From Loxodes magnus (Eukaryota > Ciliophora > Karyorelictea > Loxodida > Loxodidae), in assembly GCA_946699065.1 (NCBI GenBank), contig CAMPDV010001995.1:23594-87593 (forward strand): a DNA stretch of 64,000 bases, in the 5' to 3' direction. A program made the translations under genes and the position numbers. The notes under the pieces are model-generated. The model ran no database searches, was not told where the DNA came from, and was given only the letters and a program-made list of their open reading frames with translations. Below are positions 17,152-63,921 of this stretch, piece by piece. Positions within the stretch are counted from its first letter, which is position 1. Every line of letters begins with the position of its first letter.

Positions 17152-19533
17152 TCAACTCTTCTTCTCATCCATCTTACTCATTTTTAAACTTTCAAACTTG
17201 AATTCTTATGAGTCTTCCTCTAATAAAAAAACTTAACCTTAACTTTATTATTTTATACTTTATTCTTACTTCATTTTTTTAGTTTGACCCTACTAACTTA
17301 TATCTCCATCTTATCTTTATGGATTTCACTTTTATTTTAATCTTTCTATCTAATTTATAAAATAATCTATATCAGGTCTAATGTTCTGGTCGAAAGCTAA
17401 GCATCTGTAAAATAGATCAGTTAATTCAGGTTCTTATAGTATTTCGTTTGAAAACCTAGGAATCATTTTATTAATATAAACTATTTATTTTAGTTATTCT
17501 TATTCATTTATATTTGGATAAACCATTTCTTCATTGAATATCTCTATTCCAATACAACCTAAAGATCAGATATCACTTTTCATAGTCACATTTCTTTCAA
17601 ATTATTCAGGAGCCATTCATTGATGTAATCCTCTTTATTCTATTGTTGTTAACCAATGAGTAGAATCGAATAATCCTAAAATAACTATTTTGGGTTAATA
17701 TTTCTTATCTAGTAGAATATTTAGAGATTTTAGTTCTTTATGTATTAAGTTTCTAGAGTGAATAGCCTTTAGACCTTCTGCTATTTAACTAAGTAAATTA
17801 AGTTTCTAGTAATATCTTAAAGGAGATCCTATTTTACTTTCTTTGAATAGCTACTTAGTCTAAGTTTATTAGAATAAACTACCAAATCACTAAAAATCTG
17901 TTAAGAGGCATAAATTGTAACTTCCTTGTTCTTAAGTATCAATAGCAACTCCTGTAAGTCTTTAAACTCTTAAGCTGTTTATTAATAGAAGTTCTTTACA
18001 CTCGAAATAGAACTAATCTAATAAAATATGAAGATCAGTATTTTAGTGAAATACTTTAAGAGCATAAGTAGACCCATCAATAGTAATAAGATAGACAATT
18101 CCATATTAATCTTTAGCTAGTACTTAGTAGTCATCTAGAAATTATATATTAGGAATTAAGATTCTATAGTTCAATATTCTAATTTTAGAATTATTATCAT
18201 AACCACCACCATTTTAATATAAAAGCTGTCATATATGATCTATAGTAATGGAACTCTATTATTAAACATCTAAAGAAACAATATCTATTTAGGGAATTTT
18301 AAACTAGGGGTCTAATTTGTTGGCTTCAATAAAACATTAGAGAGATTCAATAGTTTTATTTAAAGCTTACAAAGATAAACCTTTGTAGTAATAAGCTACT
18401 GCACAGTTTGAATTAAGCTAAATTACTATGTTAAGACACTAGATTGCTTCAGAAAAATTACTTAGCTAATAAAGTGAATAAGCTTTATGTTAGTAAAATT
18501 CTGGAAGAATAGAATTTAGCTGAATAGCTTTGTCAAAACTTTAAATCGCTTCTTAGTTTTTCCCTAACTTTTCCAATGCCGATCCTTTGTTACCATGTAC
18601 AGTTGCATTATTAGGGTCTAGTTTAAGAGCTACATTATAGCTCTAAATCGCTTCTTAGTATTTCCCTAACTTTTCCAATGTCAATCCTTTGTTATTATGT
18701 GCAGCTGCATTATTAGGGTCTAGTTTAAGAGCTACATTATAGCTCTAAATCGCTTCTTAGTATTTCCCTAACTTTTCCAATGCCGATCCTTTGTTATTAT
18801 GTACAAGTGCACTATTAGGGTCTAGTTTAAGAGCTACATCATAGCTCTAAATCGCTTCTTAGTATTTCCCTAACTTTTTCAATGACAATCCTTTGTTACC
18901 ATGTACAGTTGCATCATTAGGGTCTAGTTTAAGAGCTACATCATAGCTCTAAATAGCTTCTTAGTATTTCCCTAACTTTTCCAATGCTGATCCTTTGTTA
19001 TTATGTACAGTTGCATTATTAGGGTCTAGTTTAAGAGCTACATCATAGCTCTAAATCGCTTCTTAGTATTTCCCTAACTTTTTCAATGACAATCCTTTGT
19101 TACCATGTACAGTTGCATCATTAGGGTCTAGTTTAAGAGCTACATTATAGCTCTAAATAGCTTCTTAGTATTTCCCTAACTTTTCCAATGCCAATCCTTT
19201 GCTATTATGTACAAGTGCACTATTAGGGTCTAGTTTAAGAGCTACATCATAGCTCTAAATAGCTTCTTAGTATTTCCCTAACTATTCCAATACCAATCCT
19301 TTGTTACCATGTGCAGTTGCATCATTAGGGTCTAGTTTAAGAGCTAAATCATAGCTCTAAATAGCTTCTTAGTATTTCCCTAACTTTTCCAATGTAAATC
19401 CTTTGTTATTATATACAGCTGCATAATTAGGATCTAATATTAAAGCTATATTGAAATACTCAATAGCTTAAAGATAATTTCCCTCTTTGAATAATTAGAG
19501 TCCTTTTCGATTATACTAAGTTGCTTGTGACAT
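17152..19533 (-). CDS. TPR-array pseudokinase A (793 aa)
   Basis: ATG at 19,533 and TGA at 17,154-17,152 are in one unbroken frame of 794 codons. After a short start (MSQATQYNRKGL) come about a dozen 34-residue tetratricopeptide repeats of the form LGKYxEAIQSYDLALKLDPN. A C-terminal protein-kinase fold follows. It keeps HKELKSLN, MAPEQF and SDI-W-SLGC, with Trp encoded by TGA. The catalytic loop HRD is HKE, and the DFG position reads ILG, so two acidic catalytic residues are missing. The family is therefore likely to bind ligand or partner proteins rather than phosphorylate; this is inference. The end (DEKKS-stop) matches paralogues C and D. The TPR array would serve as a protein-interaction scaffold. 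An X-family remnant lies just downstream. Confidence 0.9.
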
Positions 19534-26230: not shown

Positions 26231-26558
26231 CTGAATTTAGTTTTGCGATATCATAAAGAACAATGAATGCACTTAATATAATAAAAATGAAAGTGATAAT
26301 AAAAGTGAGATGGGTTTAAGCATATAGTTAGTATTGTAATTTAAAATAGCTTATTGCAATATAAAAGAATAAGCTATTAATTTATTAAAAAGCTTTCTTT
26401 AGTTAAATATTTTAATAAATGTATGGAAATAATTAGATTAAACTAAAATTACAAAGAAAACTAAGATACTTCTTTAAATCCTTTTCTTATAAACAAGAAA
26501 TTAGATTAAATAAATTAACAATCTATAAATTAAATTATTATAAGATACCATTTTCAAA

Positions 26559-29456
26559 ATGTCAGAAGCTTCTTAGTACATTTAATAAGGAATCTAATTA
26601 GTTAAATAAGCAAATTATCAAGAAGCATTTTAATATTTTAATATTGCTGTCATATTAGATCCTAATAATGCAGCTGCATATTATAATAAAGGATTCACAT
26701 TGGGAATATTAGGAAAACACAATGAAGCAATTCAGAACTTTGATTTAAGCCTAAAGTGTAATCCTAAGTATGTAGATGCACTTTATAATAAAGGAGTTGC
26801 ACTGGAAATCTTAGGAAAACACAATGAAGCAGTTCAGAGCTTTGATTTAGCTATTAAACTTGATCCTAGCAATGCAGATGCATATCAACATAAAGGAGTC
26901 GCATTGGGAATATTAGGAAAGCATAATGAAGCAATTCAGAACTTTGATTTAGCTATTAAACTTGATCCTAATAATGCAGATGCATATCAACATAAAGGAG
27001 TCGCATTGGAAAAATTAGGAAAATTCAATGAAGCAGTTCAGAGCTTTGATTTAGCTATTAAACTTGATCCTAACAATGCAACTGCACATTACAGTAAAGG
27101 AGTCACACTAGAAAAACTAGGAAAATTTAATGAAGCAATTAAAAACTATGATTTAGCCCTAAAGTGTGATCCTAATAATGTAGCCGCACATTATAATAAA
27201 GGAGTTGTTCTGTAAGAACTAGGAAAAAATAATGAAGCAAATCAGAGCTATGATTTAACTATTAAACTTAATCCAAGCAATGCAGCTGCACATTGTAATA
27301 AAGGAGTCGCATTGGAAAGATCAGGGAAGCACAATGAAGCAATTCAGAGCTATGATTTATCTCTTGAATTTGATCCTAATAATGCAGCTGCACATTATAA
27401 TAAAGGGATATCTTTAGAAAGTTTAGGAAAACATAATGAAGCAATTTAGAGCTTTAATGTAGCTCTTAAACTTAATCATAACAATGCAACTGTACATTAT
27501 AATAAAGGAATCGTATTAGAAAAACTAGGAAAAATTAATGAAGCAATTAAAAGCTATGATTTAGCCCTAAAGTGTGATCCTAATAATGTAGCTGCACATT
27601 GTAATAAAGGAGTAGCACTGAATAAATTAGGAAAATTCAATGAAGCAATTCAAAGCTTTAATACAACTCTCAAATTAGATCTAAAAAATGCAACTGCACA
27701 TTGTAATAAAGGAGTCGCACTGGAAAAATTAGGAAAATTTATTGAAGCAATTCAGAGCTATGATTTATCTCTTGAACTTGATCCTAACAATGAAGAAACG
27801 CATTATAATAAAGGGATATCTTTGGAAAGTTTAGGAAAACATGATGAAGCAATTCAGAGCTTTAATGTAGCTCTTAAACTTGAGCCTAGCCATGTGTATG
27901 CACATAATAATAAAGGAGTTGCCCTAAAAAAATTAGGAAAACTTAATGAAGCAATTTAAAGCTATGATTTAGCTCTTAAAATTGATCCTATGAGTGTATT
28001 TGCGCATTTTAATAAAGGAATCGCACTGGAAAAATTAGGAAAGCCCAATGAAGCAGTTAAAAGCTATAATTTAGCTATTTAATTCGATTCTTCTTTTTCA
28101 AAAGCGTACAAAGAGAAGGGCTTTTCTCTCTATATTCTAGGAAATTATCTTGAAGCCATCAAATACCTTAATAAAGCTATTTAACTTGATCTCAACTATG
28201 CAGAAGCATATTACGACAAAGGTCTAGTTCATAAAGCTTTAAATCAGAACCAAGAAGCACTTGAGAGTTTTATTAAAGCAAACAAATTAAATCCTTAACT
28301 GAAAATACCCTAAATAAATAATATAATTTAAGATACATTTGTAGAAAATACTATTACTCTAGATAATATTTGATTTCTTTTAAATTAAAATGGAGCAGGT
28401 TAAGATAGTAAATCTAATATAAGAATATGAAACTATAGAAATTTAGTTCCCAACAATCAGTTTCTAAATGATCTATAAGTATTAGCTAAAGATTAATACG
28501 GAACTACTTATCTAATTACTATCGATGCATCTTTTTATGCTCTTAAGATATTTAACTAATAGAGTGATTAGCAGAAACTAATAGATTAGTTCTATTTCTA
28601 ATGCAAAGAGATACTTTTAATAAACAACTTAAGAGTTTAAAGAATTTTAGGAGTCGCTATTGATACTTAAGACTAAGAAAATTACAACTTTTCCTTGTTA
28701 TTAGATTTTTAGTGCAAAGGAAGCTTGTTCTAGTAAATCTATGCGAAGTAGTTATTCAAAAGCAGTCAAAAATGACCTGATTTAAGATATTATTAAAAAC
28801 TTAATTTACTTAACTAGATAGCAGAAGGTATAAAAGCAATTCACTCTAGAAACTTAATACATAAAGAACTAAAATCTCTAAATATTCTACTAGATGAGCA
28901 ATATTAACCTAAAATAGTTATTTTAGGATTATTCGATTCTACTCATTGGCTTACAACAATAGAATAAAAAGGATTTCATTAATGAATGGCTCCTGAGCAA
29001 TTCGACAAAAATGTGACTATGAAAAGTGATATCTGATCTTTAGGTTGTATCGGAGTGGAAATATTCAATGAAGAATTACTTTATCCAAATATAAATGAAT
29101 AAGAATAACTAAAATAAATAGTCTATATTAATAAAATGATTCCTATGTTTTCAAACGAAATATTATAAGAGCCTGAATTAACTGATCTATTCTACAGATG
29201 TCTAGCTTATGACTAAAATATAAGACCAGATATAGATAGCTTTATAAGTTAGATAGAAAGATTAAAGCAAAAGTGAAATCCTTAAAGTTTAGATGGAATT
29301 ATTAGTTAATAGGGCTAGAATGAAGGGATAAAGGAATAAGGTCATAAAATAAAATAACTTCCTTAAGAGTAGAAGATTACATCAGAAGGATATCAAGAAA
29401 CAAAGCTTGAGAATTTAAATATTAGTGATATTGAAGAAAGAAAAGTTGAAAAGTGA
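26559..29456 (+). CDS. TPR-array pseudokinase B (965 aa)
   Basis: ATG at 26,559 and TGA at 29,454-29,456 lie in one frame of 966 codons. Roughly residues 20-580 are about 16-17 tetratricopeptide repeats (LGKHNEAIQSFDLAIKLDPN type). Internal TAG/TAA occur where neighbouring repeats have CAG/CAA. Residues about 610-900 form a kinase fold. The VAIK-type Lys is kept (FYALKIF). The catalytic loop is HKELKSLN (His 768), with Glu in place of the catalytic Asp. The DFG site is ILG (Gly 790). MAPEQF and SDI-W-SLG are intact, with Trp809 and Trp826 encoded by TGA. It is likely a pseudokinase on a TPR scaffold. A conserved Q-rich tail ends ERKVEK-stop. An X-family gene follows about 0.8 kb downstream. 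Confidence 0.92.
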
Positions 29457-34853: not shown

Positions 34854-37800
34854 ATGCAAGAAGCTGATGAATATAATCGAAAAGGGAATTGTTTATTAAA
34901 ATTAGGAAAGTTTCTTGAAGCAAATGAATGCTTTGAAATAGCTATTGCATTAAATCCTAATAAGGCAGCTATTTATCATAATAAGGGAATAGCATTGGAA
35001 AAAATCGGTAAATATAACGAAGCTATTCAGAGTTTCGATAAAGCTCTGAACCTTGATCCTAATTAGGCAGCTGTTTATCATAATAAAGGGAAAGCGCTTG
35101 AAAAAATTGGTAAATATAACGAAGCTATTCAGAGTTTCGATAAAGCTCTGAACCTTGATCCTAATTAGGCAGCTGTTTATCATAATAAAGGGAAAGCGCT
35201 TGAAAAAATTGGTAAATATAACGAAGCTATTCAGAGTTTCGATAAAGCTCTGAATCTGGATCCTAATTAGGCAGTTGCATATCATAATAAAGGGAAAGCG
35301 CTTGAAAAAATTGGTAAATATAACGAAGCTATTCAGAGTTTCGATAAAGCTCTGAACCTTGATCCTAATTAGGCAGCTGTTTATCATAATAAAGGGAAAG
35401 CGCTTGAAAAAATTGGTAAATATAACGAAGCTATTCAGAGTTTCGATAAAGCTCTGAATCTGGATCTTAATAAGGCAGCTGTTTATTATAATAAAGGACA
35501 AGTACTTGAAAAGCTTGGGAAATATAACGAAGCTATTCAGAGTTTCGATAAGGCTCTGAATCTGGATCCTAATTAGGCAGTTGCATATCATAATAAAGGG
35601 AAAGCGCTTGAAAAAATTGGTAAATATAACGAAGCTATTCAGAGTTTCGATAAAGCTCTGAACCTTGATCCTAATTAGGCAGCTGTTTATCATAATAAAG
35701 GGAAAGCGCTTGAAAAAATTGGTAAATATAACGAAGCTATTCAGAGTTTCGATAAAGCTCTGAATCTGGATCTTAATAAGGCAGCTGTTTATTATAATAA
35801 AGGACAAGTACTTGAAAAGCTTGGGAAATATAACGAAGCTATCTAGAGTTTCGATAAAGCTCTGAACCTTGATCCTAATTAGGCAGTTGCATATCATAAT
35901 AAAGGGAAAGCGCTTGAAAAAATTGGTAAATATAACGAAGCTATCTAGAGTTTCGATAAAGCTCTGAACCTTGATCCTAATTAGGCAGCTGTTTATCATA
36001 ATAAAGGGAAAGCGCTTGAAAAAATTGGTAAATATAACGAAGCTATTCAGAGTTTCGATAAAGCTCTGAATCTGGATCTTAATAAGGCAGCTATTTATCA
36101 TAATAAGGGAATAGCATTGGAAAAAGTTGGTAAATATAACGAAGCTATTCAGAGTTTCGATAAGGCTCTGAATCTGGATCCTAATTAGGCAGTTGCATAT
36201 CATAATAAAGGGAAAGCGCTTGAAAAAATTGGTAAATATAACGAAGCTATTCAGAGTTTCGATAAAGCTCTGAACCTTGATCCTAATTAGGCAGCTGTTT
36301 ATCATAATAAAGGGAAAGCACTTGAAAAAATTGGTAAATATAACGAAGCTATTCAGAGTTTCGATAAAGCTCTGAATCTGGATCTTAATAAGGCAGCTGT
36401 TTATTATAATAAAGGACAAGTACTTGAAAAGCTTGGGAAATATAACGAAGCTATCTAGAGTTTCGATAAAGCTCTGAACCTTGATCCTAATTAGGCAGCT
36501 ATTTATCATAATAAAGGGAAAGCGCTTGAAAAAATTGGTAAATATAACGAAGCTATCTAGAGTTTCGATAAAGCTCTGAACCTTGATCCTAATTAGGCAG
36601 CTATTTATCATAATAAAGGGAAAGCGCTTGAAAAAATTGGTAAATATAACGAAGCTATCTAGAGTTTCGATAAAGCTCTGAACCTTGATCCTAATTAGGC
36701 AGCTATTTATCATAATAAAGGGAAAGCGCTTGAAAAAATTGGTAAATATAACGAAGCTATTCAGAGTTTCGATAAAGCTCTGAATCTGGATCTTAATAAG
36801 GCAGCTGTTTATTATAATAAAGGACAAGTACTTGAAAAGCTTGGGAAATATAACGAAGCTATCTAGAGTTTCGATAAAGCTCTGAACCTTGATCCTAATT
36901 AGGCAGCTATTTATCATAATAAAGGGAAAGCGCTTGAAAAAATTGGTAAATATAACGAAGCTATCTAGAGTTTCGATAAAGCTCTGAACCTTGATCCTAA
37001 TTAGGCAGCTATTTATCATAATAAGGGAATAGCATTGGAAAAAGTTGGTAAATATAACGAAGCTATTCAGAGTTTCGATAAGGCTCTGAATCTGGATCCT
37101 AATTAGGCAGTTGCATATCATAATAAAGGGAAAGCGCTTGAAAAAATTGGTAAATATAACGAAGCTATCTAGAGTTTCGATAAAGCTCTGAATCTGGATC
37201 TTAATAAGGCAGCTATTTATCATAATAAGGGAATAGCATTGGAAAAAGTTGGTAAATATAACGAAGCTATTCAGAGTTTCGATAAGGCTCTGAACCTCGA
37301 CCCTAATTAGGCAGTTGCATATCATAATAAAGGGAAAGCGCTTGAAAAAATTGGTAAATATAACGAAGCTATCTAGAGTTTCGATAAAGCTCTGAACCTT
37401 GATCCTAATTAGGCAGCTGTTTATCATAATAAAGGGAAAGCGCTTGAAAAAATTGGTAAATATAACGAAGCTATTCAGAGTTTCGATAAAGCTCTGAACC
37501 TCGACCCTAATTAGGCAGCTATTTATCATAATAAGGGAATAGCATTGGAAAAAGTTGGTAAATATAACGAAGCTATTCAGAGTTTCGATAAGGCTCTGAA
37601 TCTGGATCCTAATTATGGCAGTTGCATATCATAATAAAGGGAAAGCGCTTGAAAAAATTGGTAAATATAACGAAGCTATTCAGAGTTTCGATAAAGCTCT
37701 GAATCTGGATCTTAATAAGGCAGCTGTTTATTATAATAAAGGACAAGTACTTGAAAAGCTTGGGAAATATAACGAAGCTATCTAGAATTTTGATAAAGCT

Positions 37801-40800
37801 CTGAACCTCGACCCTAATTAGGCAGTTGCATATCATAATAAAGGGAAAGCGCTTGAAAAAATTGGTAAATATAACGAAGCTATCTAGAGTTTCGATAAAG
37901 CTCTGAACCTTGATCCTAATTAGGCAGTTGCATATCATAATAAAGGGAAAGCGCTTGAAAAAATTGGTAAATATAACGAAGCTATCTAGAGTTTCGATAA
38001 AGCTCTGAACCTTGATCCTAATTAGGCAGCTATTTATCATAATAAAGGGAAAGCACTGGAAAAAATTGGTAAATATAACGAAGCTATCTAGAGTTTCGAT
38101 AAAGCTCTGAACCTTGATCCTAATTAGGCAGCTATTTATCATAATAAGGGAATAGCATTGGAAAAAGTTGGTAAATATAACGAAGCTATTCAGAGTTTCG
38201 ATAAGGCTCTGAATCTGGATCCTAATTAGGCAACTGTTTATTATAACAAAGGACAAGTTCTGGAAAAACTAGGTAAATATAACGAAGCTATCTAGAGTTT
38301 CGATAAAGCTCTGAACCTTGATCCTAATTAGGCAGCTGTTTATCATAATAAAGGAATAGCATTGGAAAAAGTTGGTAAATATAACGAAGCTATTCAGAGT
38401 TTCGATAAAGCTCTGAACCTTGATCCTAATTAGGCAGCTGTTTATCATAATAAAGGGAAAGCGCTTGAAAAAATTGGTAAATATAACGAAGCTATTCAGA
38501 GTTTCGATAAAGCTCTGAATCTGGATCTTAATAAGGCAGCTGTTTATTATAGTAAAGGACAAGTACTTGAAAAGCTTGGGAAATATAACGAAGCTATTCA
38601 GAGTTTCGATAAAGCTCTGAACCTTGATCCTAATTAGGCAGCTGTTTATCATAATAAAGGGAAAGCGCTTGAAAAAATTGGTAAATATAACGAAGCTATT
38701 CAGAGTTTCGATAAAGCTCTGAATCTGGATCTTAATAAGGCAGCTGTTTATTATAATAAAGGACAAGTACTTGAAAAGCTTGGGAAATATAACGAAGCTA
38801 TCTAGAGTTTCGATAAAGCTCTGAACCTTGATCCTAATTAGGCAGCTATTTATCATAATAAAGGGAAAGCGCTTGAAAAAATTGGTAAATATAACGAAGC
38901 TATCTAGAGTTTCGATAAAGCTCTGAACCTTGATCCTAATTAGGCAGTTGCATATCATAATAAAGGGAAAGCGCTTGAAAAAATTGGTAAATATAACGAA
39001 GCTATTCAGAGTTTCGATAAAGCTCTGAACCTTGATCCTAATTAGGCAGCTGTTTATCATAATAAAGGGAAAGCGCTTGAAAAAATTGGTAAATATAACG
39101 AAGCTATTCAGAGTTTCGATAAAGCTCTGAATCTGGATCTTAATAAGGCAGCTGTTTATTATAGTAAAGGACAAGTACTTGAAAAGCTTGGGAAATATAA
39201 CGAAGCTATCTAGAATTTTGATAAAGCTCTGAACCTCGACCCTAATTAGGCAACTGTTTATTATAACAAAGGACAAGTTCTGGAAAAACTAGGTAAATAT
39301 AACGAAGCTATCTAGAGTTTCGATAAAGCTCTGAACCTTGATCCTAATTAGGCAGCTGTTTATCATAATAAGGGAATAGCATTGGAAAAAATTGGTAAAT
39401 ATAACGAAGCTATTCAGAGTTATGATAAAGCTCTTTAACTCGCTCCAAGTTTTTCAGAAAATCATATTAATAAAGGAAAAGCGCTGGAAAAACTAGACAA
39501 ATATAGCGAAGCTATCTAAAGTTATGATATAACACTTAAACTTGGTTCTACTGATTCAAAATCCTCAGATTTTTCTCTCTCTAAGCAAGGAAAACATCTC
39601 GAATCTATCTAGTGCATTAATAAAACTATCTAGCTTGATCCTTAGTTTATGGAAGTATAATAACAAAAAGGTCTAGAGCAACAATCTTACAATCAGAATA
39701 AAGAAGCACTTGATTGCTTTAATTAAGCACTTTAATTTAATAAAAATGTAGAAATTCCCTAAGCTAGAGATATTATTTTACCTGCCTAAGTAAAAAATAA
39801 AATAGGTATAGAAGATATTTGACAATTCTTGATATAAAATGGTGGTAGTATAGATAGCTAATCTCAATTAAGAATATGAAACTACAAAGATTTAGTTCCT
39901 AATAGTAAATTTCTAAATACTTTATAAGTATTAGCTAAGGATTAATTTGGAACTATCTATTTTATTTCTATCAATAGATCTAATTATGCACTTAAAGTAT
40001 TTACCTAATAAAGTGATCAGCAGAAACTAATAGATTAGTTCTATTTAGAATGCTAAGAACTTTTATATATAAGCAATTAAAGAGTTTAAAGACTAGTAGG
40101 AGTTGCTATTGATACTTAAGAGTAATTAAATTACTAATTTTGTATTTTACTAGACTTTTAGTGTAATTGAACTTTATTCTAAATAATCCAGACAAAGTAG
40201 TTATTTAAAGATAGTTAAAAACAATCTGCTACAAGATATTATTACAAACTTAATTTACTTAGCTAAATAGCAGAAGCTTTAAAGGTACTTCACTCTAGAA
40301 ACTTAATACATAAAGAACTAAAATCTCTAAATATTCTATTAGATAATGAAGACTCCCCAAAGATACTAATTTTTGGATTATTCGATAATAATAACTGATT
40401 AACAAATATCGAATAAAGAGGATTACATTAGTGGATGGCACCCGAGCAGTTTGAAAAGAAAATTACCTAAAAGAGTGATATCTGATCTTTAGGTTGTATC
40501 GGAGTGGAAATATTCAATGAAGAATTACTCTATCCAAATATAAATGAATAAGAATAACTAAAATAAATAGTCTATATTAATAAAATGATTCCTATGTTTT
40601 CAAACGAAATACTATAAGAATCTGAATTAACTGATCTATTCTACAGATGTCTAGCTTATGACTAGAACATAAGACCAGATATAGATAGCTTTATAAGTTA
40701 GATAGAAAGATTAAAACAAAAGTGAAATCCTTAAAGGTTAGATAGAGATATAAGTTAGTAGTGATATAATAAAGGGATATAGGAAGAAATTGATCATAGC

Positions 40801-45026: not shown

Positions 45027-45605
45027 ATGGGGCTTTCTTAAAGCTGTTCCAAATGCTTATGTCGTTTCGACTATTCAATAACCATTTCTCTGACCCTTCC
45101 TTGTGGACATCGAGTATGCCAAAAATGTGTTCTAGAAGAATACTTAAGAGACGGTTCAAACCAGTGTCCAAATAGAAAGTGTGAAAAAGGTGATTTCAAT
45201 GAAGGTAAAAGTTCAAAAGATGAGTAAGACCAATAAAGTAAAAAGGAAAGAGAATACAATTAGCTTAATCTTGAAGAAACTAAAAAGGAGATAACCTTAT
45301 AAAAAGAGGGAAAAGGAATAAAAGTTTAGATTTACACTTAAAATAAAGAAGAAATTAACTTAATAGTAGAGGAAGGAGAAACTATTGAATAACTGAAATA
45401 AAAAATAGAATAAGCAGAAGGAATCGATGCTGATTTTTATGAACTCTATTGATAAAAAGAAAAGTTAGTTAGATGGCTAAGTCTAAATTAAATGGAGGAT
45501 TGAGGAGAAGTTTAGTTAGAGCTAAGGATGAATGATTGTAGCAATATAATTGATAGGAAGTAAGATTAAATACAGATGGTAAAAAGTAAAGCTAGAAAGT
45601 AATGA
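45027..45605 (+). CDS. RING finger - ubiquitin-like domain protein (192 aa)
   Basis: ATG at 45,027 and TGA at 45,603-45,605 bound a 192-residue frame. Residues 7-52 form a RING-type zinc finger: C7-x2-C10, then LPCGH with C26 and H28, C31-x2-C34, and QC-PNRK-C (C47, C52). A charged linker follows. Residues about 97-167 resemble ubiquitin: IKVQIYTQNKEEINLIVEEG, then ETIEQLKQKIEQAEGIDADF, then a QLELRM strand, matching the beta-grasp pattern. The architecture suggests an E3 ubiquitin ligase or related adaptor in the ubiquitin pathway; that is inference from domains. The last 20-odd codons overlap the beginning of the GT...AG array, so the true C terminus may differ. The printed stop lies inside the third intron-like unit, and if a possible 19-nt intron at 45,538-45,556 is spliced the frame meets TGA right after the ubiquitin-like domain. 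Confidence 0.85.
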
Positions 45606-47930
45606 ATAAAATAAACAGTTTTTAATAAAATGAAAGCAATGTTGAGTAATTAATGCTAGAATAGAACGTATAAGATAATCTATAATTAGAAAGTAATAAA
45701 TAATCTAAATAGGAGAAAGTAAAAAATGTAAACAATAGGTTAAAAGGAATTTACGCAAAGTTAAGAATAAAATATAGGAGGTAATTTTTAAAAAAGTATG
45801 TAACATATTAATAAAAGTGAGTAAAGGTTTAAGTTAGAAAGTATTAAAATTGAATTTTTAGAATGTAAAATTATAAAAATAGATTGTAAAAGGTATCTAA
45901 ATAAAGGAAGTAAAACATAAAATTAGAATGTAAAATATAAAGAAGATTGTAAGGAAATAAATAAAGGCGGTAATCTATCAAATTAGAAAGTAAATTACTT
46001 AGAATTAGCAAGTAACATTTACAAACAAAGAAGGTAAGAAATGAAAATAAGAGGGCATAGTACTTAATATAGAATGTAAGATATTTGAAATTTTGATAGT
46101 TGGTAAGATATTTGAAATACTTATAGAATGTAAGATATTTGAAATACTTATAGGGGGTAAGATATTGAAAATATTGATAGAAGGTAAGACATTGAAAATA
46201 TTTATAGAAGGTAATATTTAAATATGAATAGGATGTAGAATTTTGAATATTTATAGAATGTAAGATATTGCAAATACTTATAGTGTGTAATTGATTTAAA
46301 TACTTATAGTGTGTAATTGATTTAAATGATTAAAGTGAGTAAGGTATATTAAATCTTTTAGGGAGTATTATAATTTAAATGATTAAAGAGCGTAAGAGCT
46401 GATGAATACTTATAGGTAGTAATATATCTTAAGTGATTAAAGGAAGTAAGATATATTAAATATTTATAGATGGCTAGAAGTTTAAATATTTATAGATTGT
46501 AAGATATTAGAGACATTTATAGGGGGTAAGATATTAGAATGATTTATAGAATGTAAGATATTTTAAAAGTTTATAGGGGGTAGGAACTTTTAAATATTTA
46601 TAGTGTGTAAAATATTTGAACACTTTAAGATGGTAAGAATTGATAATTACTTACAGTGTGTAATTTATTTGAAATATTGATAGACAGTAAGGTATAAAGA
46701 TTTATAGCGAGTATGTAATTATTTATAGGGGGTAAATATTTGAATGATTTAAAGACTGTAAGATATTGAAAATAATGATAGTGAGTAATAGGTTTTAAAT
46801 ATTTATAGTAAGTAAGCTATAAACATTTATAGTGAGCAAGATTCTTTTAATATTTATAGAATGTAAAGCATTTTAAATATATAGTGAGTAATATTCTATA
46901 TCAAAGAATGTGACTATTTTAATATTTTAGGCTGTAAGGTATTTTGAATATTTATAGACTGTAAAGTATTTAACTTTTTTATAGATTGTAAGATATTTAA
47001 ATAATTAAAGAGAGTAAGGCATTTTAAATAACGTATAGAATGTAGGGTTATATAAATATTTATAGATGGTTAGATATTTAAATGTTTATAGAATGTAAGC
47101 TATTTAAATATGAATAGTGAGTAATATTCTACACTTAAAGATGGCTAGAAGTTTCATTATTTATAGATTGTAAGCTATTTTAGATATTTTTAGAAGGTAA
47201 GATATTTTAATATTTATAGAAGGTAAGATATTTTAAGTCTTTATAGAAGGTAAAGCTTTACATATATTTATAGTGAGTAAGATATTTTATATATCATTAG
47301 TGAGTAATATTTTTTGAATATTTATAGTGAGTAAAATATTTAAAATATTTATAGAAGGTAAGATATTTTAAATATTATAGAAGGTAAAACTTTACATATA
47401 TTTATAGTGAGTAAGATATTTTAAATATTATAGAGCGTGAGATATTTTAAATATTTATAGAATGTAAGGTAATTTAAATATTTATAGGTGGTAAAATTAA
47501 TTTTATTTGTATAGCTTGTAATAAATTAATTATAGCTCGTATTCAAATATTATTTTAGTTGGTATCTTTTATTATTAATTGCTGGTATAAAATACCTCAG
47601 ATGTAATTTTTTACTCTAGGTATCATTTTTACTTTTGATTGAACGAATAAATAATTTGATGGTTTTATTTTAATTAAGGTTGTATTTATTTATATGAGTG
47701 TATTTTCTCAATTTTAGTCAGTAAGTATACTTATGTAGAATGTTATCTATTTAATACTTATAGGGGGTAATTCTTTATTTTAAAGAAAGTAAGTAGCTCA
47801 TTTTAGGTAATTATTTATTAGAGAATGTCATTTGTAATTATTTATATGAACAGATTTTTACGCTAGCCTGTTATTTATCTAATTATAGCATGTAAAATTA
47901 TTACCTAAGTGAGTTTTTATATTTAGAGTG
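45560..47930 (+). other. Array of ~80 intron-like GT...AG segments separated by 3-nt exons
   Basis: From 45,560 the sequence can be cut almost without remainder into segments that start GT (usually GTAAG or GTAA; a few GC) and end AG (usually TATAG or TAAAG). Each is 16-25 nt long and each is separated from the next by exactly three bases. I count about 78 well-formed units to 47,560 and several less regular ones to about 47,930. Units in the first 460 bp are 16-21 nt and varied; from about 46,075 they are mostly 23-24 nt and alike (GTAAGATATT...TTTATAG). Spacer triplets vary widely (AAT, AAG, GGG, TGT, TGA, ATG, ATT, GAA, AAA). Irregular spots lie at about 45,619-45,640 and 45,716-45,780. 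Intron identity is inferred from ends, size and the fixed 3-nt spacing; no transcript evidence is available here. Confidence 0.75.
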
Positions 47931-48700
47931 TAATTTTTTATTAAAGCTGAGATTGAGAAAACAATTAACTCTTTTAAAAGTTTATCTTAAATCACTCTTT
48001 TTTCATTTACTATTTAGATATCTTTTGCTAGTTTAGAGTTACTAAACTTATTAGTGACTATTTCTTAGTCCTTTAGCAGATAATTTCTTAAACTTTTTGA
48101 ATGTAGAAATTTAGATTTGATTAGCACTAAACATTTTAAAATGATTACTTCTTTTATTCTTATTAGACTTACTATTGCTTTTCTACCAGATTTCTTTATA
48201 ATTTGTCTTTCATTCTCTAAATACTTTTAGATACTTAATTTTAATATTATGGCAATCCTTAAAGTATCCCTAGTTTTATTAATGGAAAGATAGTTTATTA
48301 TAGTATGATTTCCTCTATTAATGGTTTACTAAATATTGTATTGCTGTATTAAATATAAAGCATAGTAAAATGACTCAGTATCTAGTATATGAAAATAGAA
48401 TAAGCATTATAGTAAATAAATAAGATGAAGATAAATGCTAGTAGATTAAAAGTATCTACTTGGTTAATCTAATCCATACATAGTTTTAAATAATTACTTT
48501 CCTCTAACCAAATTTAGAATCAAGTACTTATTTGCTTCACTATTCTTTAAAGTATACTTTAAAGTATAATCTTTACAATTTAATCCATAAGAGCTACCAT
48601 CTTGTTGCTGCTTTAGAATTAACATTTTAAAAGTCATTATCAAAGAATAGAAAATAGAAAACCTTTATTAGTTAAATGGGATAAACATGCAATTAATATA
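47930..48700. other. Spacer between the array and the LINE
   Basis: AT-rich sequence without a recognised gene. It probably includes the 3' end of the minus-strand LINE. Confidence 0.3.
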
Positions 48701-60722: not shown

Positions 60723-63700
60723 TCAGCTCTTCTTCTCCTTACTTTCGTTTATCTTCCAATTTGCAAAATTTATCTCTTTAAATCCTTCTGTTATAACCTT
60801 CTTCTCTAAAGCTTAGTATTGTTTGTTAATACCTTCTTCTTCCTTTATCATTTTATTATATTCCTAATAACTTATATCTCTCTCTTACTCTTTAGGATTT
60901 CACTTTTGCTTTAATCTTTCTATCTAACTCAGGAAACTATCAATATCTGGTCTTATATTCTGGTCATAGGCTAAACATCTGTAGAGTAGATCAGTTAATT
61001 CAGGTTCTTATAATATTTCGTTTGAAAACATAGGAATCATTTTGTTGATATAAACTATTTGCTTTAGTTATTCTTATTCATTTATATTAGGATAAAGTAA
61101 TCCTTCATTGAATATCTCAACTCCGATACAACCTAAAGATCAGATATCACTTTTCTTTGTCACATTCTTTTCAAATTGTTCAGGTGCCATTCACTGATGT
61201 ACGCCTTTTTATTCTAATATAGTTAATCAGTTAGTTTAATCGAATAATCCAAAAGGTACTATTTTAGGTTAGTCTTCATTATCTAATAGAATATTTATAG
61301 ATTTCATCTCTTTGTGAATCAAATTTCTGGAGTGAATTGACAATAAGCCATCTGCTATTTAACTAAGTAAATTTAGTTTTTTATAAAATCTTAAAGCAGA
61401 TCCTTTTTGATTGCTTTTGAATAGTTATTTAGTCTATATTTATTAGAATAAACTTGCTTTAAACTAAAATTCTAATAAAAGAAATAAGTTGTAATTTCCT
61501 TATTCCTAAGTATCAATAGCAACTCCCTTTAGTTATAGAATTCTTAAGTTGTTTAGTGACAGTAGCTCTTTGCATTCAAAATAGAACTGATTTATTTATA
61601 TCTAAATATTAGTCTTTTAGTTAAATATCTTAAGAGCATAATTAGATTGATCGATAGTAATAAGATAAATAATTCCGTATTAATCTTAATAAAGTTTTTA
61701 TAAGCTATTAAGAGATTAATTATCAGGAACTAATTCTTTGTAATTTCATATTCTTAGTTGAGATTAGCTATTTACACTAGCACTGCTTTAGTATAAGAAA
61801 TTTCCAATTTCTTCTATAGAAATTTCTTATTATTCTTAGATTAATTTATTAATATCTCTTATTTGAGGATTTATAGATTAGAATTTATTTAATGCGCTGT
61901 ACGAAAACATTCGAGGGCTTCTTGAATCTAATTTAAAGCTTGATGAACTAAACCTTTGTCATACCAAGCTTTTGCATATTTGGGATTAAGCTAGATAGCT
62001 TTGTTAAAACACTCGATGGCTTCAAGATAATTTCCTAGTTTATAGAGAGAAAAGCCTTTCAATTTGAAGGATTTTGCATTAGTAGAATCGATTTTAATAG
62101 CTTCGTTTAGACTTTCAATGACTTCAATATGTCTTCCTAATTTTTTAAGTACATATCCTTTACCAATATGAAAGTCTGCGTATTAGGATCTAGCTTAATA
62201 GCTATATCACAACTCTATAAAGCTTCGTTGTATTTTCCTAAATTATTTAGTGCTAATCCTCTATTATTATGAGCAAGTGCAAGCATAGGATCAAGTTTAA
62301 TAGCAATATCATAGCTATATAAAGCTTCGTTGTATTTTCCTAAATTATTTAGTGCTAATCCTCTATTATTATGAGCAAGTGCAAGCATAGGATCAAGTTT
62401 AATAGCAATATCATAGCTATATAAAGCTTCGTTGTATTTTCCTAAATTAAATAATGCAGATCCTTTATTATTATGAGCAAGTGTAAGCATAGGATCAAGC
62501 TTAATAGCTATATCACAACTCTATAAAGCTTCGTTGTATTTTCCTAAATTAAATAATGCAGATCCTTTATTATTATGAGCAAGTGTAAGCATAGGATCAA
62601 GCTTAATAGCTATATCACAACTCTATAAAGCTTCGTTGTATTTTCCTAAATTATTTAGTGCTAATCCTCTATTATTATGAGCAAGTGCAAGCATAGGATC
62701 AAGCTTAATAGCTATATCATAACTCTATAAAGCTTCGTTGTATTTTCCTAAATTATTTAGTGCTAATCCTCTATTATTATGAGCAAGTGCAAGCATAGGA
62801 TCAAGCTTAATAGCTATATCATAACTCTATAAAGCTTCGTTGTATTTTCCTAAATTAAATAATGCAGATCCTTTATTATTATGAGCAAGTGTAAGCATAG
62901 GATCAAGCTTAATAGCTATATCACAACTCTATAAAGCTTCGTTGTATTTTCCTAAATTAAATAATGCAGATCCTTTATTATTATGAGCAAGTGCAAGATT
63001 AGGATCAAGCTTAATAGCTATATCACAACTCTATAAAGCTTCGTTGTATTTTCCTAAATTAAATAATGCAGATCCTTTATTATTATGAGCAAGTGTAAGC
63101 ATAGGATCAAGCTTAATAGCTATATCACAACTCTATAAAGCTTCGTTGTATTTTCCTAAATTATTTAGTGCTAATCCTCTATTATTATGAGCAAGTGCAA
63201 GCATAGGATCAAGCTTAATAGCTATATCATAACTCTATAAAGCTTCGTTGTATTTTCCTAAATTATTTAGTGCTAATCCTCTATTATTATGAGCAAGTGC
63301 AAGCATAGGATCAAGCTTAATAGCTATATCATAACTCTATAAAGCTTCGTTGTATTTTCCTAAATTATTTAGTGCTAATCCTCTATTATTATGAGCAAGT
63401 GCAAGCATAGGATCAAGCTTAATAGCTATATCATAACTCTATAAAGCTTCGTTGTATTTTCCTAAATTAAATAATGCAGATCCTTTATTATTATGAGCAA
63501 GTGTAAGCATAGGATCAAGCTTAATAGCTATATCACAACTCTATAAAGCTTCGTTGTATTTTCCTAAATTAAATAATGCAGATCCTTTATTATTATGAGC
63601 AAGTGCAAGATTAGGATCAAGCTTAATAGCTATATCACAACTCTATAAAGCTTCGTTGTATTTTCCTAAATTTCCTAGCGCTAATCCTTTATTACTATGA

Positions 63701-63921
63701 GCAAGTGCAAACATAGGATCAAGCTTAATAGCTATATCATAACTCTATAAAGCTTCGTTGTATTTTCCTAAATTTCCTAGCGCTATTCCTTTATTACTAT
63801 GAGCAAGTGCAAGATTAGGATCGAGTATAATAGCTATATCATAATATTCGATTGCTTCTAGATAATTTCCTTCTTAATATAGTTAAGCAGCTTTTTGGCA
63901 ATATTAATAAGTTTCTTCCAT
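60723..63921 (-). CDS. TPR-array pseudokinase D, two frameshifts
   Basis: ATG at 63,921 (MEETYQYCQKAAQLYQEGNY) opens about 18-19 tetratricopeptide repeats of 102 bp (LGKYNEALYSYDIAIKLDPM type). A kinase fold follows with HKEMKSIN, PFG at the DFG site, MAPEQF and SDI-W-SLG. It ends KEKKS-TGA-TGA at 60,725. The TPR array is in one frame, the linker in a second and the kinase domain in the third. One base appears lost at about 62,180 (where DPN-T-x-ADFHIGKG would read through) and another at about 61,890. Family function as for A-C: TPR scaffold plus pseudokinase with HRD changed to HKE and no DFG Asp. Either a pseudogene or two assembly errors. Confidence 0.85.

Follow-up and report, generated by a model that had tools for sequence, protein, structure and literature searches.

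Long runs of codon-length exons between tiny introns, probably all spliced, in a RING finger gene family of the ciliate Loxodes magnus

The micro-exon genes of Schistosoma, which encode a variable protein family, contain many small frame-preserving exons of 6–36 nucleotides (nt) along with ordinary introns; to our knowledge, they contain no identical tandem introns. Among ciliates, the heterotrichs have exons of ordinary length. To go by the portions of the published reports covered here, even shorter exons occur in isolation, namely, 1-nt exons confirmed by RNA in plant APC11 and VPS55 (PMC8831610) and two 3-nt exons in fungal lipS genes (PMC5639578), whereas introners provide many near-identical introns, and duplication can create introns (PMC9860276, PMC4974935). 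The portion of the Loxodes magnus genome paper covered here gives a macronuclear assembly of 706 Mb, of which 231 Mb are tandem repeats; introns supported by RNA sequencing with a mean length of 19.3 nt and a mode of 17 nt, 93% of them no longer than 25 nt, and depleted of lengths divisible by three; a genetic code in which UAA and UAG are sense codons and UGA stands for Trp or stop; "orphan introns," named without a definition; and 15–16-nt introns in the heterotrichs, the sister group (PMC11441545). Here we analyze a 64,000-nt stretch of the L. magnus contig CAMPDV010001995.1 (positions 23,594 to 87,593 of the forward strand; hereafter, the window, whose coordinates are used throughout) that contains, at 45538–47946 on the plus strand, an array of intron-like units separated by 3-nt spacers. 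Comparison of many related sequences leads us to conclude that this locus is probably a protein-coding gene, with the coding sequence downstream of the first exon cut mostly into 3-nt exons that are spliced and joined.

The array comprises 91 predicted introns and 90 internal exons, as delineated by spacer counts and two parses. Within 45500–47960 of the plus strand, AG-N{k}-GT occurs 87 times with k = 3, 22 times with k = 0, and 11, 4, 4, 3, and 5 times with k = 1, 2, 4, 5, and 6, respectively; the counts climb again for longer spacers, up to 35, because of the array period. The stricter pattern TAG-N{k}-GTAA has 51 matches at k = 3 and at most one at any other k below 15. With equal prior weight given to all exon lengths of 1–60, a parse assigned 3 nt to 42 of 59 internal exons and scored 43.2; the highest score among 20 Markov shuffles was 7.2, and the reversed sequence scored 5.0. 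When 3-nt exons were favoured, the parse yielded 91 introns with GT/GC...AG ends, of 14–27 nt (mode 24), and 84 of the 90 exons were 3 nt long, with 71 triplet exons in the longest unbroken run. The array of intron-like units with 3-nt spacing is a real observation; chance origin is ruled out by the spacer counts, the shuffles, the reversed controls, and the genome-wide controls.

Both edges of the array (45538–46075 and 47515–47946) consist of short, heterogeneous introns, and the middle (46076–47514) is a near-satellite of mostly 26–27-nt units; Tandem Repeats Finder (TRF) calls the centre a tandem array. The initial annotation of this stretch had reported tandem intron-like units with exactly 3-nt spacers at 45560–47930, and this description holds, except that the array runs slightly past both of these ends. 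The statement that the triplets vary freely applies to the centre; the edge triplets are conserved between gene copies. The units were also taken to be of plausible intron size, and they do fit the RNA-seq introns of L. magnus in the published portion at hand (PMC11441545), with GT...AG ends and lengths mostly of 16–25 nt in common; the agreement does not extend to multiples of three, which are frequent in the array. Nor do all positions of the unit drift alike, as they would in a plain satellite: the spacer stays fixed while intron length drifts, and the triplets are more diverse than the introns.

The array directly continues the open frame of exon 1 (45027–45537, plus strand), which spans 511 nt from the ATG and, translated with TAA and TAG as Gln and TGA as Trp, encodes a RING finger (residues ~7–49) followed by a ubiquitin-like domain (Pfam match at residues 101–142). 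Both Pfam matches pass the cut-offs (ubiquitin, PF00240, E = 1.9e-6; zf-C3HC4, PF00097, E = 0.00019). In the spliced model of one paralog, L031, zf-C3HC4 is over its cut-off, and ubiquitin, at 21.0, is under the cut-off of 25.4. The exon 1 frame contains 13 TAA/TAG and 2 TGA codons, in agreement with this code. The domains suggest that the product could be an E3-like protein of the ubiquitin pathway. A 55-residue piece of the RING finger produced no match in viral contigs. Exon 1 ends one base past the last full codon, so that the first intron is in phase 1, and as long as the exons are multiples of three, every later intron is in phase 1, too. The single-codon exons proposed initially are accordingly of codon length, but each completes one codon with two bases and opens the next with one. 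Thirty copies were parsed to beyond the ubiquitin-like domain; among them, the length of exon 1 is 511 nt in 25 and 418 and 520 nt in one each, all in phase 1; in L047–L049, it was parsed as 488 nt through an extra, spurious intron, and for L035, L055, and L058, the start of exon 1 was assigned by alignment.

The strongest evidence of a gene comes from the 5' conserved block (45538–46075, plus strand; exons e1–e23, introns of 16–23 nt), in which the exon order is the same as in the paralogs read: three triplets, a 27-nt exon, three triplets, a 21-nt exon, and 15 triplets (for example, GAG TGT TGA AAA AAT ATT GGA AAT ATT TTG AAA CAA GAG ATG AAT). In the window, the 27-nt exon lies at 45619–45645 and the 21-nt exon, GTTAAAAGGAATTTACGCAAA, at 45739–45759, both on the plus strand; the boundaries of the latter, which was truncated by the automatic parse in this copy, were set by eye against the paralogs. 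Across the 30 copies, the automatic parse recovered the exon of 27 nt 27 times, that of 21 nt 17 times, and the two together 16 times; where copies lacking one of these calls were inspected, either other boundaries had been chosen or the site was lost. In 29 copies anchored over 14 triplets (L035 was dropped), the first triplets correspond one to one although the intron lengths differ. A block comprising 13 introns and as many triplets measures 275, 276, and 277 nt in 18, 7, and 4 copies, respectively, and thus takes all three values modulo 3, so that an unspliced reading would shift frame between copies whereas the spliced length is constant.

The substitution pattern in this block is that of codons assembled across exon joints. 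In 87 divergent pairs of copies (intron bodies at least 25% different), the intron bodies differ at 0.348 of the positions and the three exon positions, N1, N2, and N3, at 0.169, 0.274, and 0.061, respectively; N2, the most variable exon position, is the third codon base in phase 1. The GT ends differ at 0.011 and the AG ends at 0.000, the latter value mainly as a consequence of the parser requiring AG; intron length is unequal in 594 of 1131 comparisons. A phase-1 codon draws a single base from one triplet and its other two from the following triplet, and hence exists only after ligation. We measured amino-acid preservation beyond chance (excess BLOSUM) in 22 distinct blocks: the score is 1.92 in phase 1 and 0.45 in each of phases 0 and 2. 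The phase-1 score was attained by none of 1000 column shuffles and, when the exon order was shuffled, a procedure that preserves each triplet and the relatedness of the copies, in 2 of 1000 and 17 of 5000 cases; with ten divergent representatives, the count was 11 of 5000. The phase-2 control was attained in 3197 of 5000 and, with the ten representatives, 3511 of 5000. One predicted Trp codon split across an intron reads TGG in 19 of the 29 copies, TGA in 9, and TAA in one.

The anatomy, the conservation, and the phase-1 signal across the exon joints of the 5' block are thus evident in the sequences themselves. Such codons require ligated neighbours, and the signal is destroyed by shuffling the exon order; most likely, therefore, the triplets are exons of codon length that undergo splicing and that each bridge two codons. 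The conserved exon order and the codon signal across joints likewise favour the original suggestion that the units are genuine tiny introns of a gene and the triplets its 3-nt exons. The segment predicted to be encoded by the 5' edge of the array is, in copy L040, WGEIFEIMRKQYEQKSQNDFEKRVLKKYWKYFETRDE. All in all, the long runs of spliced and joined codon-length exons most likely represent a genuine mode of gene organization; the comparative support is good for the 5' edge and weaker for the centre and the 3' end.

The window gene belongs to a large family. In the genome searched (705,730,643 bases, 7843 contigs), the exon encoding the RING and ubiquitin-like domains (RING-UBL) is present in at least 150 copies (of 1034 candidates, 150 were scored, all with E ≤ 1.1e-47). 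Of these 150 rows, 17, including the window itself, are 89–91% identical to the window and the remaining ones 51–56%, values that count TAA, TAG, and TGA as mismatches. A 16-nt DNA word from the RING finger occurs 562 times with at most 2 mismatches, compared to 361 times for the reversed word; among the matches listed (about the first hundred), all are exact. Copies of RING-UBL recur ~17–160 kb apart on the same contig (C156, C505, C1057, C279, C473, and others) and also share contig coordinates across contigs (e.g., 5577 on C1878, C2250, and C3628), a pattern that points to segmental repeats of large size or to redundancy among contigs.

Arrays were read in the window and 14 other copies (C10, C4, L029–L033, C80, L035–L038, C544, and C811, of which C544 and C811 are near-identical relatives of the window and L036–L038 start inside the gene), and the 5' parts in 19 further copies (L040–L058). 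Every copy read has 3-nt exons between tiny introns. The gene models contain 74–164 introns each, with 3-nt exons accounting for 84 of 90, 72 of 77, 120 of 128, 65 of 73, and 159 of 163 exons, among others, and the longest unbroken triplet runs range from 24 to 81. In 12 models, 1157 introns were parsed, of which 1081 are GT-AG and 45 GC-AG, as called by a parser that favours GT and all but demands AG. Counted directly in 12 genes, the spacer between [TA]AG and GTA[AG] is 3 nt long in 758 cases and 1, 2, 4, and 5 nt long in 2, 4, 5, and 4 cases; when these gene sequences are reversed, spacers of 3 and 4 nt account for 79 and 54 cases. Nearly all introns flanked by 3-nt exons (610 of 613) are 15–25 nt long. 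In one copy, C80 (L034 with L039, C80:683001–689500), 21 units start with neither GT nor GC; in each of the six displayed, a GAAAG donor follows the triplet AAA, a uniformity that would fit spread by duplication.

The central variable array of the window (46076–47514, plus strand) consists mostly of 23–24-nt introns with the consensus GTAAGATATTTTAAATATTTATAG, alternating with variable triplets. This one consensus is common to all 12 central arrays measured, that of the window included (L036 and L037 are almost identical). Per array, triplet diversity is 0.56–0.69, close to saturation, and intron-body diversity is 0.04–0.42, a 1.6- to 14.5-fold difference; in four genes, an identical intron in 94 units is followed by 17 different triplets. 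Simple tandem duplication predicts that intron and triplet are equally alike, and the central arrays differ from this expectation. Three explanations are candidates: selection might hold the intron sequence while the triplets are free; conversion or copying might renew the introns and spare the triplets; or one intron might have been repeatedly inserted into existing coding sequence. Hypermutation of the triplets was considered and rejected, given that 0 of 252 triplet sites differ between the window and C544, and likewise between the window and C811, and that L036 and L038 differ at 3 of 270 triplet sites compared to 6 of 1278 body sites. Positive selection alone was rejected, too, as it leaves unexplained why N2, the third codon base, equals the other positions in diversity. 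The predicted phase-1 peptide of the triplet runs, which include some edge exons, is hydrophilic, much like the peptides obtained with shuffled triplet order.

The 3' block (47515–47946, plus strand) again has short introns, with the triplets TCA AAT GGG AAA homologous in paralogs, as is a 21-nt exon, GTATCATTTTTACTTTTGATT, at 47620–47640. The sequence after the last intron, the beginning of a terminal exon (47947–48050), is homologous in paralogs, too.

If this architecture is functional, a member of this large ciliate family would encode a RING finger and a ubiquitin-like domain first, and after these domains, a spliceosomal intron of ~14–28 nt would interrupt nearly every codon past its first base. 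The spliceosome would excise ~74–164 introns per transcript and ligate the triplets. The 5' edge of the array would encode a conserved segment, and the centre a hydrophilic, fast-changing one that would enlarge by tandem duplication of intron-plus-triplet units; nearly all exons being multiples of three, gain or loss of a unit would change the protein by one residue and keep the frame. The actual splicing, the translation of the centre, the frame of the 3' end, and the growth by duplication are components of this scheme that we infer from the comparisons above.

A number of observations weigh against such an all-spliced coding gene, several of them in the 3' part of the array. The window site at 47641–47658 (plus strand) starts with GA and ends with TG where, in an 8-copy alignment, most paralogs have GT...AG, so that the splice sites were probably lost in this copy; the AG of the homologous site is also missing in L030. 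The exon at 47699 (plus strand) is parsed as a single nucleotide where most paralogs have a triplet, and together, these two features indicate that the window copy may be damaged. Across six genes, the 3' block scores 0.65 in phase 1 and 1.25 in phase 2, values attained in 267 and 33 of 1000 shuffles, respectively, and does not confirm phase 1. In the centre, TGA occurs 17 times in phase 1 compared to 22.0 +/- 3.6 expected, so that the depletion is not significant. In the 5' block, the synonymous share is highest in phase 1 (0.286), yet 239 of 1000 column shuffles attain it, and in the main subfamily of 18 copies, the triplets (N1 and N3, 0.064; N2, 0.090) are no better conserved than the intron bodies (0.052). 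Elsewhere in the family, 31 of the 1157 parsed introns have donors other than GT or GC, and exon 1 of L032 (418 nt) lacks a part. A search of the protein collection for homologues of the family returned 81 candidates, none with E ≤ 1e-3, and our search found no processed, intronless copy of the family, an uninformative result. Finally, among the 613 introns that lie between 3-nt exons, 344 have lengths divisible by three, chiefly the 24-nt units of the centre (24 nt is the length of 291), and the consensus 24-nt intron, by inspection, would keep the frame open if retained.

In a split case, splicing would act on the codon-length exons of the 5' and 3' blocks, and many of the central 24-nt units would stay in the mRNA. 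A retained unit, read in phase 1 as NGT AAG ATA TTT TAA ATA TTT ATA G.., preserves the frame without TGA; the abundance of 24-nt introns is contrary to the published genome trend; and the 21 units of C80 that begin with neither GT nor GC also speak for it. Nevertheless, the T of GT is kept in 0.83–1.00 of the 24-nt units in the five genes profiled, and the 21–23-nt introns interspersed among them would mostly break the frame if retained, so that we deem this arrangement unlikely. Removal of the whole array, or of long stretches of it, as one large intron or by skipping, with the inner sites serving as decoys or regulatory elements, would relieve a mechanical difficulty, namely, that spliceosomes could hardly occupy introns 3 nt apart simultaneously, and skipping should be tolerable in that most donor–acceptor combinations would preserve the frame. 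The triplets of the 5' block, however, evolve like codons across joints, in the phase set by the upstream exon, as decoys have no need to do, and we regard this possibility as quite improbable.

An intron-derived satellite in a pseudogene family or in untranslated sequence, with triplets that are not spliced today, would agree with the tandem call of TRF in the centre, the numerous copies, the damage near the 3' end of the window copy, and the lack of excess triplet conservation in the main subfamily. Such an origin of the entire array has very little probability: the RING/ubiquitin-like frame is continuous in most copies, at 42–60% identity to the window (the exceptions are L032 and L035, the latter matching only the second half of exon 1), exon length stays at 3 nt while intron length drifts, and the 5' block carries the codon signal. 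The intron-derived satellite raised in the initial annotation probably describes the growth of the centre, and might apply to it as a non-spliced state. We give almost no credence to an unspliced repeat protein on either strand, with a 9-residue repeat in 27-nt units. A minus-strand open frame of 733 amino acids (45196–47397) could be such a protein, but with TGA as the sole stop, long open frames are expected, and the units are often not multiples of three; we reject an unspliced or antisense repeat protein on the variation of block length modulo 3 among copies.

Beyond the probable splicing of the triplets, the arrays could have a role of their own: dozens to more than 100 3-nt exons per gene would all be spliced and translated, and the near-identical introns would act as in-register homologous spacers for recombination that shuffles, inserts, and deletes single residues with the frame preserved. 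This idea is tentative, and we doubt it more than we trust it. It predicts identical introns with near-saturated triplets, as observed in the centre; set against it is the finding that triplet mutation is not raised between close copies (0 of 252 and 3 of 270 sites).

The initial annotation had suggested a genome-wide search for such arrays, and two array patterns indeed produced 29,072 and 31,836 matches, compared to 4 and 672 for the reversed controls. Among the listed matches of the second pattern are arrays with quite different introns. One array-like match, at C10:1010099–1010592, has introns GTAAACACTAATTCTTAG and the triplet AGA, unlike the 24-nt consensus; other matches that resemble arrays with 3-nt exons are at C16:264816–267560 (minus strand), C16:344673–344771, C6:137688–137771 (minus strand), and C15:608508–608597 (minus strand). 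In the ordinary sequence and random loci sampled, the array does not look like a general feature of the genome. In 261 kb including satellites, two-intron chains with spacer 3 numbered 48 compared to 4 in the reversed sequence, and several other spacers rose similarly or more; with tandem repeats masked, 179 kb of ordinary sequence contained 7 compared to 4, so that intron pairs 3 nt apart were not in excess. Longer chains, of at least five, were found in the window and in none of 20 random loci of 10 kb each, and the consensus intron with up to 4 mismatches was absent from these 20 loci, a small part of the 706 Mb.

An ordinary RING gene in L012 (5316–6600) has no array and is open for ~1.3 kb except for three in-frame TGAs; its downstream part resembles Kelch repeats by eye. 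Tandem repeats of other kinds were seen at several loci. Four 10-kb loci (L021, L022, L023, and L025, on C400, C600, C800, and C1400) consist entirely of 123-nt tandem repeats with a translation that, by eye, looks like WD40; these contigs, of 110–294 kb, may be giant coding-like satellites. L024, L026, and L027 (C1000, C2000, and C3000) are also entirely tandem repeats, with units of 80, 300, and 93 nt. The window itself contains tandem arrays of a 102-nt unit at 18542–19448, 26658–28079, 34954–39434 (~44 copies), and 62184–63844; the frame at 26310–28373 matches TPR in Pfam, the one hit in ten translations from other parts of the window.

If the proposed splicing is real, these genes represent a new extreme of gene architecture, in which each gene has 65–159 codon-length exons, up to 81 of them in an unbroken series, and near-minimal introns. 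The question is then how the spliceosome handles sites 3 nt apart, one after another, some hundred times in each transcript without ever losing the frame, and the array becomes a natural test bed for the limits of exon size, splicing fidelity, and intron gain. Proteins could gain or lose single residues through tandem duplication with the frame intact, and karyorelict gene prediction could easily overlook such genes. Should recombination between the introns shuffle the triplets, the family would be a natural machine that diversifies protein tails at single-codon resolution, a form of codon-sized exon shuffling.

In the titles and abstract openings of the open-licence literature searched, we found no description of runs of 3-nt or single-codon exons, nor of 3-nt exons or runs thereof in the portion of the L. 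magnus genome paper covered (PMC11441545). The introns published there and those of the array are alike in tiny size and in the code, and differ in that multiples of three are depleted in the former and frequent in the latter (PMC11441545). Heterotrichs share the extremely short introns and differ in their ordinary exon lengths. The Schistosoma micro-exon genes and the array genes both contain series of small exons with lengths in multiples of three, those of the array being the shorter. Isolated plant and fungal microexons are also 1–3 nt long but, in the excerpts covered, come one or two per gene, without runs (PMC8831610, PMC5639578). As with introners, near-identical introns are present at many positions, one 24-nt consensus being shared by the 12 central arrays; in the portions of the reports at hand, however, introners are spread over many genes and the duplication cases are single events (PMC9860276, PMC4974935), whereas in the array, near-identical introns stand in tandem within one family, about one per codon. 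Measured against the exon–intron patterns that we found described in these sources, the array would go far beyond all of them.

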